From NCBI GenBank assembly GCA_937128055.1, contig CAKZMC010000071.1:1-39609 (forward strand): 39,609 nt of DNA. Direction: 5' to 3'. Below are positions 4,343 through 24,442 of the stretch, one piece after another. Both the position numbers and the translations under genes were made by a program. The notes beneath the pieces are model-generated. The model made no database searches. It saw only the letters and a program-made list of their open reading frames with translations, and was not told the DNA's origin. How positions within the stretch are numbered: position 1 is the first letter of the stretch; each line of letters starts with the position of its first letter. Source of the DNA: an uncultured Actinomycetes bacterium. Its GTDB lineage: Bacteria > Actinomycetota > Geothermincolia > Geothermincolales > RBG-13-55-18.

Positions 4343-5392
4343 CTACAAGTACTTCTCGAACCAGGAGAACATAAGCTCCCATACCTCCTGCCTTCCCCGG
4401 GGGTCGTTCACGCAGTGCGCCTCGTTGGGGTATATCTTCAGTTCCGCCGTTTTTCCCGCCGCAAGCAGGGCATCGTACATGCGGCGGGCCTGGCTCACGG
4501 GGCAGAGCGGGTCCTTTTCGCCGTGGATGAGCAGGACGGCCGCACGCGTCGAAGAGGCGTAGTTGAGAGCCGATCGCACCGCGTACTCCTCCGGCATCTC
4601 CTCGGGGGTGCCGCCCGCCATGGGCAGCAGCTGGTCCACCAGGGACCTTATCTGCGCGTCATCGTTGTTCACCGCGTTGTAGTAGAGGTCCGCCGCGTCG
4701 TAGAAGCCCGCCTCCGCCACAACCGCCTTGATGCGGGGGTCCCGCTCCGCGGCCAGCATGGATACCGCCGCGCCGTGGCTCTGTCCGTACATCCCTATGC
4801 GCCCGTCCTCCACCAGGCCTCGCGACACCAGGTAGTCCACGGCGGCGATGACGTCGTCCACCTCTCCCTTGGCCCCCTCGTGGGAGCCCTGCGATTCGCC
4901 GCTGCCCCGGAAATCGGGGTTGAAGACCAGGTACCCGCGGTCTCGGATGAGAAGGGCCACGTCGCTGAAGTCGCCCGCCGTCCCGAAGCCGGCGTGGTTT
5001 ACGATGACCGCGGGCCAAGGGCCGTCGCCGCTGGTGGGGCGGAAGAGGAGGCCGGACACCGGGAGGCCGTCCAGGCTCGTGTAATAAACCCGCTCCGCCG
5101 CCAGCTCCAGGTTGGAAAGGAGGCGGTAAACCTCGTCCACCAGCTTCCCCGCGCGGGAAAAATCGCCGTTGTTGTAGGCGTCCAGGGCCTCCAGCCACTT
5201 GGCGCGCGCCTGGCGCACGTCGTACCCCTGGTTGGCCTTCTGGCTTATCTCGTTGGCGGCGGCCAGGCCGCGCACGGTGACTCCTACCTGGCTGATGATC
5301 CTGGTCAGCGAGCAACCGCAGCCGCCGGCAAGCAGGGCCGTGCTCAGTATGAGGAACGCCGCGAGCGCAAGCTTCCACCGGCCTTTTCTCAT
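4343..5392 (-). CDS. Alpha/beta hydrolase (dienelactone hydrolase/S9-like), predicted lipoprotein
   Basis: N-terminal signal with LLAGGCG lipobox; GQSHGA nucleophile elbow; LLIHGEKDPLCP and EAHCV; start placed at MRKGRWK preceded by AAGGAG. Confidence 0.82.
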   Translation of the reverse strand: MRKGRWKLALAAFLILSTALLAGGCGCSLTRIISQVGVTVRGLAAANEISQKANQGYDVRQARAKWLEALDAYNNGDFSRAGKLVDEVYRLLSNLELAAERVYYTSLDGLPVSGLLFRPTSGDGPWPAVIVNHAGFGTAGDFSDVALLIRDRGYLVFNPDFRGSGESQGSHEGAKGEVDDVIAAVDYLVSRGLVEDGRIGMYGQSHGAAVSMLAAERDPRIKAVVAEAGFYDAADLYYNAVNNDDAQIRSLVDQLLPMAGGTPEEMPEEYAVRSALNYASSTRAAVLLIHGEKDPLCPVSQARRMYDALLAAGKTAELKIYPNEAHCVNDPRGRQEVWELMFSWFEKYL

Positions 5393-19181: not shown

Positions 19182-20144
19182 CTACTGGCTCCCCTTGAGG
19201 ATCCTTTCCGCCTCCTTCCGCCAGGATTGGAGGGGAAACCATCCCATCCACTGTTCGGGTGCCATGCGGATGTACTTCTCCACCTCCGCGACCACCTCGT
19301 TCATGATGCGCTGCACCTCGGCTTTGCGCCCCGCCGCCTGGTCGCAGAAGATGGGGGGCCCGAAGATGAGCAGGCTGGAGTAGGGGTCCTTGCCGCGCAG
19401 CAGGGCGAGGGGGACGATGGGAGCCCCGGAGTCGTAGGAGAAGTGCGCCCATCCGCTGCCCACGGCGGCGGGCTTTCCGAAAAGCTGCACCACGCCGGTC
19501 CCGGGGACGTCGAAGGCGATGCCAACCCACTTTCCCTTGGCCAGGTGCTCCCTCACCTTCGGTATGACATCCTTGTTGACCAAGAACACCGGCTCCTCGG
19601 GGTCGCACCCGAGGAGCCCCCCGAAGAAGATCATGGCTTCCAGGTAGCGCGGCACCGGGGTGTCCGCGGGGTTGTAGGTGAAGGTGGTGTAGGGCCTCCC
19701 CCTGCGGGCCATGACGGCGTGGGCGGTGGCGATCTCGCCCAGGTGGGCGCCGACGAAGATGACCCCCTTGCCCAGGGACGCGGCGCGGTCGAGGTTTTCC
19801 TCCCCCTCCACGCGCAACCCCCGCAGGTAGCGCTCGCCGTTCTTTCCCAGCTTGAACATGTCCAGCATGGGCATGAACATGGTGGCGCACGCCCCGCGTG
19901 CGATAGCGTTCAGCCTTTTGTCGTCGCCTATCTCGGGCAGGGCCTCGCGGATCCTGGCCTTCAGGCGCCGGCGCATGCCCGGGCGCGCGTAGTAGATGGC
20001 GGCCCCCAGCCACCGGAACAGCGCGTACATCAGGGAAGCCGGCAGGAACTTGAAGAGGAAGAGCGTAAAGCGGAAAATGGCCAGCAGGAAACCGTCCAGC
20101 GCGCGCATGAATATGTTCGGCCTCTCTTCTCTCCCTTCACTCAT
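19182..20144 (-). CDS. LpxL/HtrB/PatA-like lysophospholipid acyltransferase superfamily protein, paralog 1
   Basis: YARPGMRRRLKARIREALPE; GVIFVGAHLGEIATAHAV; FDVPGTGVVQLFGKPAAVGSGWAHFSYDSGAPIVPLALLRGKDPY; APEQWMGWF near C-terminus. Confidence 0.88.
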   Translation of the reverse strand: MSEGREERPNIFMRALDGFLLAIFRFTLFLFKFLPASLMYALFRWLGAAIYYARPGMRRRLKARIREALPEIGDDKRLNAIARGACATMFMPMLDMFKLGKNGERYLRGLRVEGEENLDRAASLGKGVIFVGAHLGEIATAHAVMARRGRPYTTFTYNPADTPVPRYLEAMIFFGGLLGCDPEEPVFLVNKDVIPKVREHLAKGKWVGIAFDVPGTGVVQLFGKPAAVGSGWAHFSYDSGAPIVPLALLRGKDPYSSLLIFGPPIFCDQAAGRKAEVQRIMNEVVAEVEKYIRMAPEQWMGWFPLQSWRKEAERILKGSQ

Positions 20145-20224
20145 CTGTCAACCCCCTTTCGCGAGCGCCTTCTCTTCCTTGCCGTGGACTCGGGCCGTGA
20201 CGAGGAGAGCAGTCCACGTTTACT

Positions 20225-21226
20225 TCACCGGGAGGGCGCCTTCCCTAGGATCTCCTGCGCCTGCTTCTGCCAGGCAGGGAGGCCGAACCATCCCATCCAC
20301 TGTTCGGGGGCCTGCCGTATGAGCTTCTCCACCGCCGCGATGGTCTCGCCCATGATGCGCGCGACCTCTTCCTTGCGCTCCGCCGTGGCGTCGCTGAAGA
20401 CGGGAGGCTGGAAGGTGAGGAGGTTGTCGCAGGGGTGCTTGCCGCGCAGCAGGGCGAGGGGCACGACGGGCGCCCCGGTGTCGTAGGAGAAATGGGCCCA
20501 ACCGCTGGCCACGGCGGCGGGCTTTCCGAAGAGCTGCACCACGCCGGTCCCGGGGACGTCGAAGGTGAGCCCGATCCACTTGCCCTTCTTCAGGTGCTCT
20601 ATCACCCGGTGGATGATGTCCTTGCCGGCCAGAAAGGCCGGCTCCTCGGGGTCGCACCCGAGAAGCCCGGCGTAGTATTGCAGGGCTTCCACGTAGCGCG
20701 GGACGGGGGTGTCGGCGGGATTGTAGGTTATGGGTGTGTAGGGCCTTCCCCGGCGGGCCATGACGGCATGCGCTATGGCCACCGCGCCAAGGTGGGCGCC
20801 GACGAGGATGATGCCCTTGCCCAGGGCAGCGGCGCGGTCGAGGTGCTCCTCCCCCTCCACGCACAGCTCCCGCATGTAGCGTTCCCCCTCCCTGCCGAGC
20901 GTGAAGACGTCCAGCATGGGTACGAAGGCGCTGGCGCAGGCGCCGCGGGCGACGGCGCTTATCTTCCTCGCGTCCCCCATCTCCGGTAGGGCTTCGGCGA
21001 TCCTGGCCTCCAGCCTGCGGCGCATGCCGGGGCGGGCGAGGAGCAGGGCGGCGGCGATTCCCCGGAAGATCGCGTACATGACGGAAGGCGGGAAGACGTA
21101 GAACATGATGCGGGTGGCGTGGAAGAGCGCCATCAAGGAACCTTGCAGGATGCGGAAGATGATGTTCGGCCTTTCCCGCCTTTCTTCGCCGCTTTGCCCT
21201 TCCATTCGCAGCCTCCTTCCACGCAC
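20225..21226 (-). CDS. LpxL/HtrB/PatA-like acyltransferase, paralog 2
   Basis: LARPGMRRRLEARIAEALPEMGD; GIILVGAHLGAVAIAHAV; FDVPGTGVVQLFGKPAAVASGWAHFSYDTGAPVVPLALLRGKHP; APEQWMGWFGL. Confidence 0.88.
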   Translation of the reverse strand: MRGRRLRMEGQSGEERRERPNIIFRILQGSLMALFHATRIMFYVFPPSVMYAIFRGIAAALLLARPGMRRRLEARIAEALPEMGDARKISAVARGACASAFVPMLDVFTLGREGERYMRELCVEGEEHLDRAAALGKGIILVGAHLGAVAIAHAVMARRGRPYTPITYNPADTPVPRYVEALQYYAGLLGCDPEEPAFLAGKDIIHRVIEHLKKGKWIGLTFDVPGTGVVQLFGKPAAVASGWAHFSYDTGAPVVPLALLRGKHPCDNLLTFQPPVFSDATAERKEEVARIMGETIAAVEKLIRQAPEQWMGWFGLPAWQKQAQEILGKAPSR

Positions 21227-21302
21227 GGTTTTTCGATGCTTTAGGTTGGCATGGCGACGTCGCTCTCGTCAATCCTTGGTGTGCCGGCCGCGGCGAACGT
21301 TT

Positions 21303-21995
21303 TCACTTGGAGGGCATGAGGGCCTGGATCGCCTCGCTGGCCTGCTTGATCAAGGCGTTCGCCTCGTCCACCAGGGTGAGGTCGCCCGTGGCGATGGCCT
21401 GCAGGTAAAGGTCGCAGGCCTTGATGTAGAGGTCGAAGATCTGCAGGACCTGCTGGCGCATGGGCTCGAGCTCGGGCGCCAGCGTCACGGAGGCCGCCTG
21501 GTTGCGGTAGTTCACCAGCGTCGACTTGGTGCGGGAGATCTCGTTGGCCATCTCCATGCCGGAGATGATGTCCTGCCCCATGACGTCTATGTTCTTCTGC
21601 AGCGTGTTCAGGTCCTGGAAGGTCTGGGAGGGGAGGGAGGTTTCCAGCGCCTGCATGCCGGTGGACTGGGCGAGTTCCTGCTCCTTGGCGGCCAGCTCTT
21701 CCTGCTCCTTCCGCAGCTGCTCCTCGTGCTCCGGGCTGTAGCGGTCTATGTACTCCACCCGGTAATTGCCGGCCTCCGAGGGATTGACCCAGGCCGTCTG
21801 GGTGTTGTCTTCCCAGACGTAGTTGTCGATGGGATCCCGGACAATGGTCCCGTATCTCACCATCACCTTGTCCGGCGTGAGCGTCATCCAGGCGATGATG
21901 ATCACCAGGATGGCCGCCAGGGCTCCCATGCCGACCCAGAGAGAGGTTTTCGCCCCCCTGCTCAGGTTGGCGTACCACAGTGTCAGCCTGTGCAT
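21303..21995 (-). CDS. Uncharacterised protein with one N-terminal TM helix and a helical/coiled-coil ectodomain
   Basis: MHRLTLWYANLSRGAKTSLWVGMGALAAILVIIIAWMTLTPDKVMVRYG TM segment; EEQLRKEQEELAAKEQELAQ coiled coil; no family recognised. Confidence 0.75.
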   Translation of the reverse strand: MHRLTLWYANLSRGAKTSLWVGMGALAAILVIIIAWMTLTPDKVMVRYGTIVRDPIDNYVWEDNTQTAWVNPSEAGNYRVEYIDRYSPEHEEQLRKEQEELAAKEQELAQSTGMQALETSLPSQTFQDLNTLQKNIDVMGQDIISGMEMANEISRTKSTLVNYRNQAASVTLAPELEPMRQQVLQIFDLYIKACDLYLQAIATGDLTLVDEANALIKQASEAIQALMPSK

Positions 21996-22110
21996 CTCTA
22001 CTCCTCGCGATCTTCTTATCTGACTGTGCTGGGCACGGGGCGGTTCCCGGGCCATGTTCCCCCGGTGCGGCGGCCACGGCGTGCGCGGACGCACAGCCCG
22101 GTCGGGAACG

Positions 22111-22130
22111 ATTAAATGGTAACATTAAAT
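22111..22130. promoter_or_regulatory. Candidate regulatory repeat ATTAAAT-GGTAAC-ATTAAAT
   Basis: Perfect 7-bp direct repeat (13-bp period) in AT-rich DNA between the uncharacterised protein gene and LpxL-like paralog 3. Confidence 0.35.
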
Positions 22131-22180
22131 GCAGGTGCCTTCCACGGAGGCGAAACGCTGGGGATCAAGGCGGGGACACC

Positions 22181-23164
22181 TCACCCCTCTCTGTGCAGGA
22201 GCTGTTGCGCCTGCTCCCACCAGGACGAGAGCCCGAACCAGCTCATCCACTGCCCCGGTGCCTCCCGTATGAATTTTTCCTCGGCGGCCACCACCTCATC
22301 CATGACGCGCTGCACCTCGGCCTTGCGCTCCGCCGCCTGGTCGCAGAGGATGGGGGGCTGAAAGGCCAGGCGGTTGTCGAAAGGCCCCTTGCCGCGCAGC
22401 AGCACAAAGGGAACGATAGGCGACCCCGTCTCGTAGGCGAAATGAGCCGTGCCGCTGGCGAAGGCCGCAGGTTTCCCGAAGAACCGCACTACGCCGGTGC
22501 CGGGGACGTCGAAGGTGAGACCTATGCTCTTCCCCCTCGACAGGTGCTCCCTCACCCTGGGTATTATGTCTTTGCCTGCCCAGAAGACGGGCTCCTCGAC
22601 GTCGCACCCGAGAAACCCGGCGTGGAAAGCCATGGCCTCCACGTAGCGGGGCGTGGAGGTGTCGCCGGGATTGTACATGATGGGGGTATAGGGCTTCCCC
22701 ATACGTGCGAGCACCGCGTGGATGACGGCCACCCCGCCCTGGTGGGGGGTGATGAATATGATTCCTTTGCCCAGGGACTCGGCGCGGGCGAGGTTTTCCT
22801 CTCCCTCCACACGCAGCCCGCGCATGTAGCGATCCCCGTGCCTCTCCATGGTGAAGATGTCGGCCATGGGCATGAAGAGGCTCGCGCATACCTGGCGCGC
22901 GACGCTGCCTATCGCATTGCCGTGCCGCAGTTCCGGCATGGCCTCGGCGATCCTGGCCTCCAGCCTGCGGCGCATGCCGGGGCGGGCATGGTAGAAGCCG
23001 TAGCCAAGGGCTCGGAAAAGCGCGTACATGAGGGAAGGCGGCAGCAAGCGGAAGAGAAAGCGGGTTACGTGGAAGACGGCCATCAGGTAACACTCAAGCA
23101 TGCGAAAGAGGAATCGCGGCCTTGCCGCGCTCTCCTCTCTTGCCGCCTTCCTCCGTCCGGCCAT
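22181..23164 (-). CDS. LpxL/HtrB/PatA-like acyltransferase, paralog 3
   Basis: HARPGMRRRLEARIAEAMPEL; GIIFITPHQGGVAVIHAV; FDVPGTGVVRFFGKPAAFASGTAHFAYETGSPIVPFVLLRGK; APGQWMSWFGL; start at MAGRRKAAREE. Confidence 0.87.
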   Translation of the reverse strand: MAGRRKAAREESAARPRFLFRMLECYLMAVFHVTRFLFRLLPPSLMYALFRALGYGFYHARPGMRRRLEARIAEAMPELRHGNAIGSVARQVCASLFMPMADIFTMERHGDRYMRGLRVEGEENLARAESLGKGIIFITPHQGGVAVIHAVLARMGKPYTPIMYNPGDTSTPRYVEAMAFHAGFLGCDVEEPVFWAGKDIIPRVREHLSRGKSIGLTFDVPGTGVVRFFGKPAAFASGTAHFAYETGSPIVPFVLLRGKGPFDNRLAFQPPILCDQAAERKAEVQRVMDEVVAAEEKFIREAPGQWMSWFGLSSWWEQAQQLLHREG

Positions 23165-23417
23165 CTGTTGCTCACCTTCTCCCGAAACCCTCTCCCCTGC
23201 CGCGAACGCGTAGGCAAGGTTCGCAGCGGCATATGCCTCTTGACAGGTGACGCCAGGTGCGATGCGGGGGAGCTTTCGCGAGCAGGGGACCGCGAGTCGC
23301 CCCACATTTCAGCGCTCACGGGAAACCCCCGCGGCCTTCCATGCCGCCCCACACTTAATGACTATGATACCACCGAACGATTGGTTAAGGTACCTCTCCT
23401 TGAAGCAAGAGAATGCG

Positions 23418-23867: not shown

Positions 23868-24077
23868 ATGCCCATTTTCGAATACCGCTGCCTGGAATGC
23901 GGCCACCGCTTCGACGCCTTTTTCCGCCGCGCGGAGGATGCCGAAAAGGAACCCCACGGGTGCGGGAAGTGCGGATCTAGCCGGGTGCGCAAGCTCTTCT
24001 CGACCATAGGCCTGGGGAGCACGGGAGGCGCGGCCGGGGATCTTCTCTCGGGGGATTGCGGCACGCGCTCCACTTGA
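23868..24077 (+). CDS. FmdB-family zinc-ribbon protein
   Basis: MPIFEYRCLECGHRFDAFF...CGKCGSSRVRKLFS; strong AAAGGAGGGG RBS. Confidence 0.93.
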   Translation: MPIFEYRCLECGHRFDAFFRRAEDAEKEPHGCGKCGSSRVRKLFSTIGLGSTGGAAGDLLSGDCGTRST

Positions 24078-24191
24078 AGTCCCTGGTGATGGTCCCGTGC
24101 GGACCGCAAGCGGGGAAGATGGCAGCCGCAGGATGAGGCAGGCGGAGCGAATAAGGCGGCGGATTGCCGGAGAGGCAAGCGAGGTAAAGGG

Positions 24192-24278
24192 ATGGAATGG
24201 TTGATCCTTGTGGGGATCATTGCGGTTTGGCTTATAGTGAGCGGGGTGGTTCTGCCGCGGCTCGGGGTCCCCACCTGA
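24192..24278 (+). CDS. 28-aa single-TM small protein (not in the supplied ORF track); may read through UGA 24276-24278 to a TAG at 24345-24347
   Basis: MEWLILVGIIAVWLIVSGVVLPRLGVPT*; GAGG RBS 7 nt upstream of the ATG; immediately downstream of and co-oriented with FmdB. Confidence 0.55.
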   Translation: MEWLILVGIIAVWLIVSGVVLPRLGVPT

Positions 24279-24442
24279 CTTTCCGGCGCGTGCCGCGTGC
24301 GGCGCGGGGAAGAGGAAGGCGGGAGCGAGGGAAGGGACGATGCTTAGCCCCGTCCCGGGAACGGACCCCGCGATGTCCGCGATGTTCTCAGGGTGAAGGG
24401 ACGGTTGGCGGCGCCTTCTCTTGTCTCTTTCAACGCGCCCCC

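Follow-up and report, generated by a model that had tools for sequence, protein, structure and literature searches.

A very probable tiny membrane selenoprotein downstream of fmdB in an uncultured Actinomycetes bacterium, and its relatives in several bacterial phyla

The window, i.e., the whole stretch of DNA analysed (39,609 nucleotides, contig CAKZMC010000071.1 of an uncultured Actinomycetes bacterium), contains at 24192-24347 a small open reading frame (smORF) in which an ATG at 24192 and 28 codons precede an in-frame TGA at 24276-24278. Past this TGA, the frame is open for 22 more codons (LSGACRVRRGEEEGGSEGRDDA) to a TAG at 24345-24347; the read-through product has 51 residues, and ordinary annotation would show a 28-residue fragment. 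The first-pass annotation of this DNA had described a smORF with a ribosome-binding site, this TGA and an open frame up to the TAG, all of which is confirmed from the sequence. The features of the locus are as follows:

23868..24077, + strand: zinc-ribbon gene of the fmdB family, immediately upstream at 114 nt from the smORF (Pfam Zn_ribbon_8, E=6e-14)
24181..24184, + strand: ribosome-binding-like GAGG, 7 nt 5' of the ATG (read from the sequence)
24192..24275, + strand: N-terminal part of the putative selenoprotein, MEWLILVGIIAVWLIVSGVVLPRLGVPT (translation; Kyte-Doolittle; AlphaFold2)
24276..24278, + strand: UGA codon, very probably for selenocysteine, residue 29 (TGA in 50/50 stop-bearing homologues; Cys in others)
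24279..24319, + strand: SECIS-like hairpin within the coding sequence (folding; apical-stem covariation)
24279-24284 with 24314-24319, + strand: lower stem of the SECIS-like hairpin (folding)
24289-24295 with 24300-24306, + strand: apical stem of the SECIS-like hairpin (folding; covariation)
24296-24299, + strand: apical loop CGUG of the SECIS-like hairpin (folding)
24279..24344, + strand: C-terminal part, LSGACRVRRGEEEGGSEGRDDA, with a second cysteine (U-x4-C) (translation; alignment)
24345..24347, + strand: TAG, putative true stop of the 51-residue protein (sequence)

Elsewhere in the window, at 19182-23305 (- strand), lie three paralogous candidate acyltransferases of the LpxL/PatA type, named by eye (19182-20144, 20225-21226 and 22181-23305), with an unrelated gene in between.

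A six-frame search with the read-through peptide over 60 related genomes retrieved ten further genomes of the window's family with an in-frame TGA at the identical codon and 53-74% identity across it (E down to 2e-18). The alignment consensus of this family is MEWLIxxxxxAAWLxLSxxVLPRLGVPT-U-xSxACRVRREE, and its 15 invariant residues, including U29, C34, R35, V36 and R37, are distributed on both sides of the TGA; conservation 3' of the TGA, the lack of which the first-pass annotation had named as a refutation, is clear, with U-x4-C and CRVR in the window protein. The TGA form also occurs in a sister family (G016), again adjoining FmdB. A more distant family of the same phylum (f24) has it in six genomes, after a YchF-like gene. 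Arabinosyltransferase-like proteins in some members are a weak hint that this phylum is Actinomycetota. In a second phylum (formerly deltaproteobacterial), a member was found in 27 of 290 sampled genomes, mostly with TGA and in a few cases with Cys, and a wider profile recovered six more TGA forms.

Forms with cysteine in place of the TGA, another of the checks proposed earlier, were found with TGC or TGT at the site (L067-L072, L075, L096, L101, L106 and L116). When 85,488 species genomes were scanned with a pattern that requires Cys, LGIPTCMSGAC was found in Deltaproteobacteria metagenome-assembled genomes (MAGs), LGVPTCMGGSC in one Planctomycetales MAG and LGIPTCMSR[NS]C in MAGs that carry a Chloroflexi or a Cyanobacteriota label and appear to share one GTDB phylum. 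One of these last MAGs, G406, carries a TGA copy (L115) and a near-identical TGT copy (L116) on different contigs, which could represent two strains in one bin. Weak matches from the Cys-pattern scan (L074, L076), together with L061, L063 and L065, were judged to be due to chance, and a plasmid search with a Cys form gave no match. Over the collected set, the codon at the site is TGA in 50 loci (among them L049, which is decayed, and L113, a tandem paralogue), TAA and TAG in none and Cys in nine, to which the Cys codons of L096 and L116 are to be added; these sequences are related to one another, and the counts are not independent. The terminal stops of the same 50 reading frames are mixed (28 TGA, 14 TAG and 8 TAA).

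The genes selA, selB, selC and selD, also named earlier as a check, are all present in the window's genome, with SelA, SelB and tRNA-Sec encoded together on contig C36. The gene for SelD in this genome (L077, G000:C112:4420-5250) also contains an in-frame TGA, which predicts SelD to be a selenoprotein as well. Within the window's phylum, all genomes tested that have an intact TGA form also have SelA (the window's genome and 17 others). One relative, G017 (82% complete), has no match to SelA and neither SelB nor tRNA-Sec above the cut-off, and its copy (L049) is decayed, with both a TGA and a TAG. In the second phylum, SelA was found in 21 of 23 TGA-bearing genomes, G659 and G418 being the two in which it was not detected, versus 10 of 20 genomes without a family member (Fisher p=0.003). 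Among the genomes bearing Cys forms, SelA was not detected in five Deltaproteobacteria MAGs and the Planctomycetales MAG, and is present in four others (G404, G414, G435 and G454).

In bacterial SECIS elements, the consensus is a hairpin just 3' of the UGA with a G in loop positions 1-2, 16-37 nt off (PMC13188914); in the window, the CGUG loop begins exactly 17 nt after the UGA, in agreement with this consensus. The hairpin that the first-pass annotation had drawn by hand is present, with its CGUG loop at 17 nt, but in the minimum-energy fold the CUUUCC of the lower stem pairs with GGAAGG and not with GGGAAG. The accompanying caution, that a hairpin may arise by chance in a GC-rich genome, was well founded as far as energy is concerned: the folding energy is no better than that of dinucleotide shuffles (z=-0.75 in the window; mean -0.66 over 44 TGA homologues). 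These z-scores are not significant, and folding energy was rejected as evidence, being uninformative because GC-rich sequence gives z-scores near zero. What marks the hairpin as more than chance is its conservation and covariation. Of the 44 TGA homologues, 43 have a suitable hairpin with a G at loop position 1 or 2, according to a permissive search that itself required the G. The window's family has GCCG-CGUG-CGGC and f24 has GGAU-NGUGN-AUCC; in the second phylum, the hairpins are mostly GCGCC-GGUC-GGCGC or GCGUC-GGUC-GACGC, with variants such as CCGGCA-GGUC-UGCCGG, and in G406 the hairpin is CUGCUC-GGUC-GAGCAG. The GGUC motif is that of the loop in the E. coli fdhF SECIS. In a set of 14 different apical hairpins, 94% of the cells pair, both-side changes occur at all six pairs and the apical stem scores 0.99 for covariation; shuffled controls score 0.27 and slid ones no more than 0.30. 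These figures are partly built in, since the hairpins were chosen for pairing, and measure consistency rather than an independent probability. Translated, the hairpin of the second phylum reads PRRSxR. The three Cys forms of that phylum all lack PRRSxR and retain AVP or MVP, a pattern suggesting that RNA constraint rather than protein constraint maintains this stretch. Two Cys forms keep a hairpin of this kind: the TGT copy of G406 (L116) retains the GGUC hairpin, and in G404 (L075, about 4519-4704) a CUGCUC-GGUU-GAGCAG hairpin, possibly a relic SECIS, persists 3' of the Cys codon.

Taken together, these sequence comparisons make it very probable (about 0.93) that smORF 24192-24347 is translated through its UGA as a selenoprotein. 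Selenocysteine would be inserted at the UGA (24276-24278) by the SelA/SelB/tRNA-Sec/SelD system that this genome encodes, under the direction of the hairpin that lies immediately 3' of the UGA and overlaps the coding sequence. The first-pass annotation had left a choice between a Sec-containing protein, now supported by the Sec machinery, the conserved downstream sequence, the Cys homologues and the lack of TAA or TAG at the site, and a 28-residue protein ending at the TGA. The latter, a single-pass membrane peptide whose downstream similarity would reflect an RNA or DNA element only, has in its favour that the 28 residues before the TGA make up a complete transmembrane segment and that the hairpin is strongly kept at the nucleotide level in the window's family, with no change in codons U+6 to U+8. 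In a simple codon-position test, the sequence 3' of the UGA could be read either way, as coding and hairpin constraints overlap there. The 28-residue peptide is nevertheless very unlikely: homologues never stop at GVPT with TAA or TAG, the stop codon at the site being always TGA, the Cys homologues run on through the site, the residues after it are kept across phyla at the protein level (MS-x-x-C, [AM]VP), and in two Cys forms the frame even continues into a fused DUF302 domain. A frame that remains open past the TGA could also mean that UGA is read as another amino acid, or is a sense codon in the genetic code of this organism. Neighbouring genes such as FmdB terminate in TGA, however, it is Cys and not Trp that substitutes in homologues, the window's genome has the full Sec machinery and a Sec-less relative carries a decayed copy; this explanation is extremely unlikely.

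From sequence and prediction, the putative selenoprotein is a single transmembrane helix, after which come a conserved LPxxGVxT-U segment, lying at the surface of the membrane, and a tail that is short and charged; several lineages have a second Cys five residues beyond the Sec. Residues 2-23 form one transmembrane helix (Kyte-Doolittle 19-residue maximum 2.77), which AlphaFold2 also predicts at 2-23, with a pLDDT of about 86-90 for residues 1-20 and a low-confidence coil for the tail; the basic residues that come after the helix suggest that the tail faces the cytoplasm. An alignment of 16 members from multiple phyla shows no variation at P22, G25, T28 and U/C29, and the second Cys (U-x4-C) is common without being universal, several second-phylum members having a Cys near the C-terminus instead. 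The predicted protein, a helix and a coil, is too short for a thioredoxin fold, and a sequence search of the PDB gave no match.

FmdB lies directly upstream, at a distance of 41-130 nt, in 11 of the 12 loci of the window's family and its sister family; at the remaining locus, L012, about 480 nt separate the gene from the nearest FmdB. Two tandem FmdB-family genes, one with a longer Cys-rich tail, stand upstream of the tiny selenoprotein at L012 (535-1021, - strand). Outside these two families, FmdB was not seen as a neighbour. The partnership with FmdB proposed by the first-pass annotation therefore holds as an adjacency kept in two families, that of the window and a sister one, and not elsewhere: the link is positional and lineage-specific. 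The small protein itself has no match to the FmdB family (TIGR02605/PF09723), and the zinc ribbon with its two CxxC motifs is found only in the separate upstream gene.

The neighbourhoods of relatives in other phyla are of another kind. In Deltaproteobacteria, the gene order is thioredoxin, tiny Cys protein and DsbD_TM/CcdA with a thioredoxin domain. A cluster recurrent in the second phylum, drawn from L093, L095, L096, L098 and L104 with not all parts present at each locus, comprises an ECF sigma factor, a thioredoxin, the tiny Sec/Cys protein, DUF302 and a membrane rhodanese; at L098, a Cys-rich protein of 65 residues, to which no Pfam family matches, also belongs to it. Rhodanese and rhodanese/metallo-beta-lactamase genes are the neighbours at the Planctomycetales locus and at the Chloroflexi-labelled ones. 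The Cys forms of G454 (L096/L117) and G414 (L101) are fused in frame to DUF302. DUF302 is the next gene after the Sec forms of related genomes, which makes the fusion a clue to the function of DUF302.

As the neighbourhoods of relatives recurrently point to thiol and sulfane-sulfur chemistry, the protein is tentatively proposed, at somewhat less than even odds, to act as a membrane-tethered selenol/thiol relay that would swap electrons or sulfane sulfur with thioredoxin-like partners. These relay-type neighbours occur in other phyla, the neighbour being FmdB in the window and a YchF-like GTPase in f24. For the family as a whole, a sulfane-sulfur/disulfide relay at the membrane, working with thioredoxin and, depending on the lineage, with CcdA, rhodanese or DUF302, in which a Cys form replaces the Sec in some lineages and can fuse to DUF302, is a possibility to be held with some doubt. 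The selenoprotein might instead handle metal or zinc together with FmdB, whose zinc-ribbon gene adjoins it upstream in nearly all loci of two families, and a small Cys-rich protein does precede it at one distant locus (L098). Such a role is unlikely given that FmdB is a neighbour in those two families only and that other lineages have thioredoxin, CcdA, rhodanese or DUF302 in its place.

The family is apparently a new selenoprotein family, spread over several bacterial phyla, although an earlier computational listing is possible. No match above chance was obtained for 11 members in NCBIfam (June 2026) and Pfam (2025), nor in a family-model search with 16 members; an Rfam scan of the locus returned nothing relevant, and a literature search on the Sec/Cys motif strings of the family and more widely found no description of it. 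In size, single membrane pass and a Sec in the tail, the window protein resembles, by description, selenoproteins K and S of eukaryotes, which are small, span the membrane once and carry the Sec in a tail facing the cytosol; these differ in that their Sec is near the C-terminus and their SECIS in the 3' UTR. Among prokaryotic selenoproteins, no entry fits by motif or name in the 119-family Table 1 of a 2026 review (PMC13188914), and the nine families of the deep-Sep paper are all other than the present one (PMC12013277). The FmdB selenoprotein of the GOS survey (PMC2398784, listed in PMC13188914) similarly brings FmdB and selenocysteine together, but there the Sec is inside FmdB, whereas the FmdB of the window has ordinary Cys codons and the Sec belongs to a separate membrane protein adjoining it. 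SaoC Cys-Cys-COOH, KCU-star/DUF466, the CC/Se motif family and OS_HP3 dual CXXC are likewise small with one Sec, often near other thiols, and mostly of unassigned function (Table 1, PMC13188914); their motifs (CU, CxxU, RxU) are unlike those of the window's family, which has no NCBIfam match above chance. The putative mercuric transport selenoprotein of the MerT type (PF02411; PMC13188914) is also a membrane protein with a Sec, but its motif is C/SxxU, and the window's family has no Pfam match.

Standard annotation is likely to miss this family twice, because its members are very short and because they look truncated at the UGA. The family offers natural Sec/Cys pairs, together with a Sec-less genome holding a decayed copy, and a hairpin in which the constraint on the RNA can be separated from that on the protein. 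It suggests the use of selenium in a membrane process linked to thioredoxin, rhodanese, CcdA and the uncharacterised DUF302, a proposition that is open to test.
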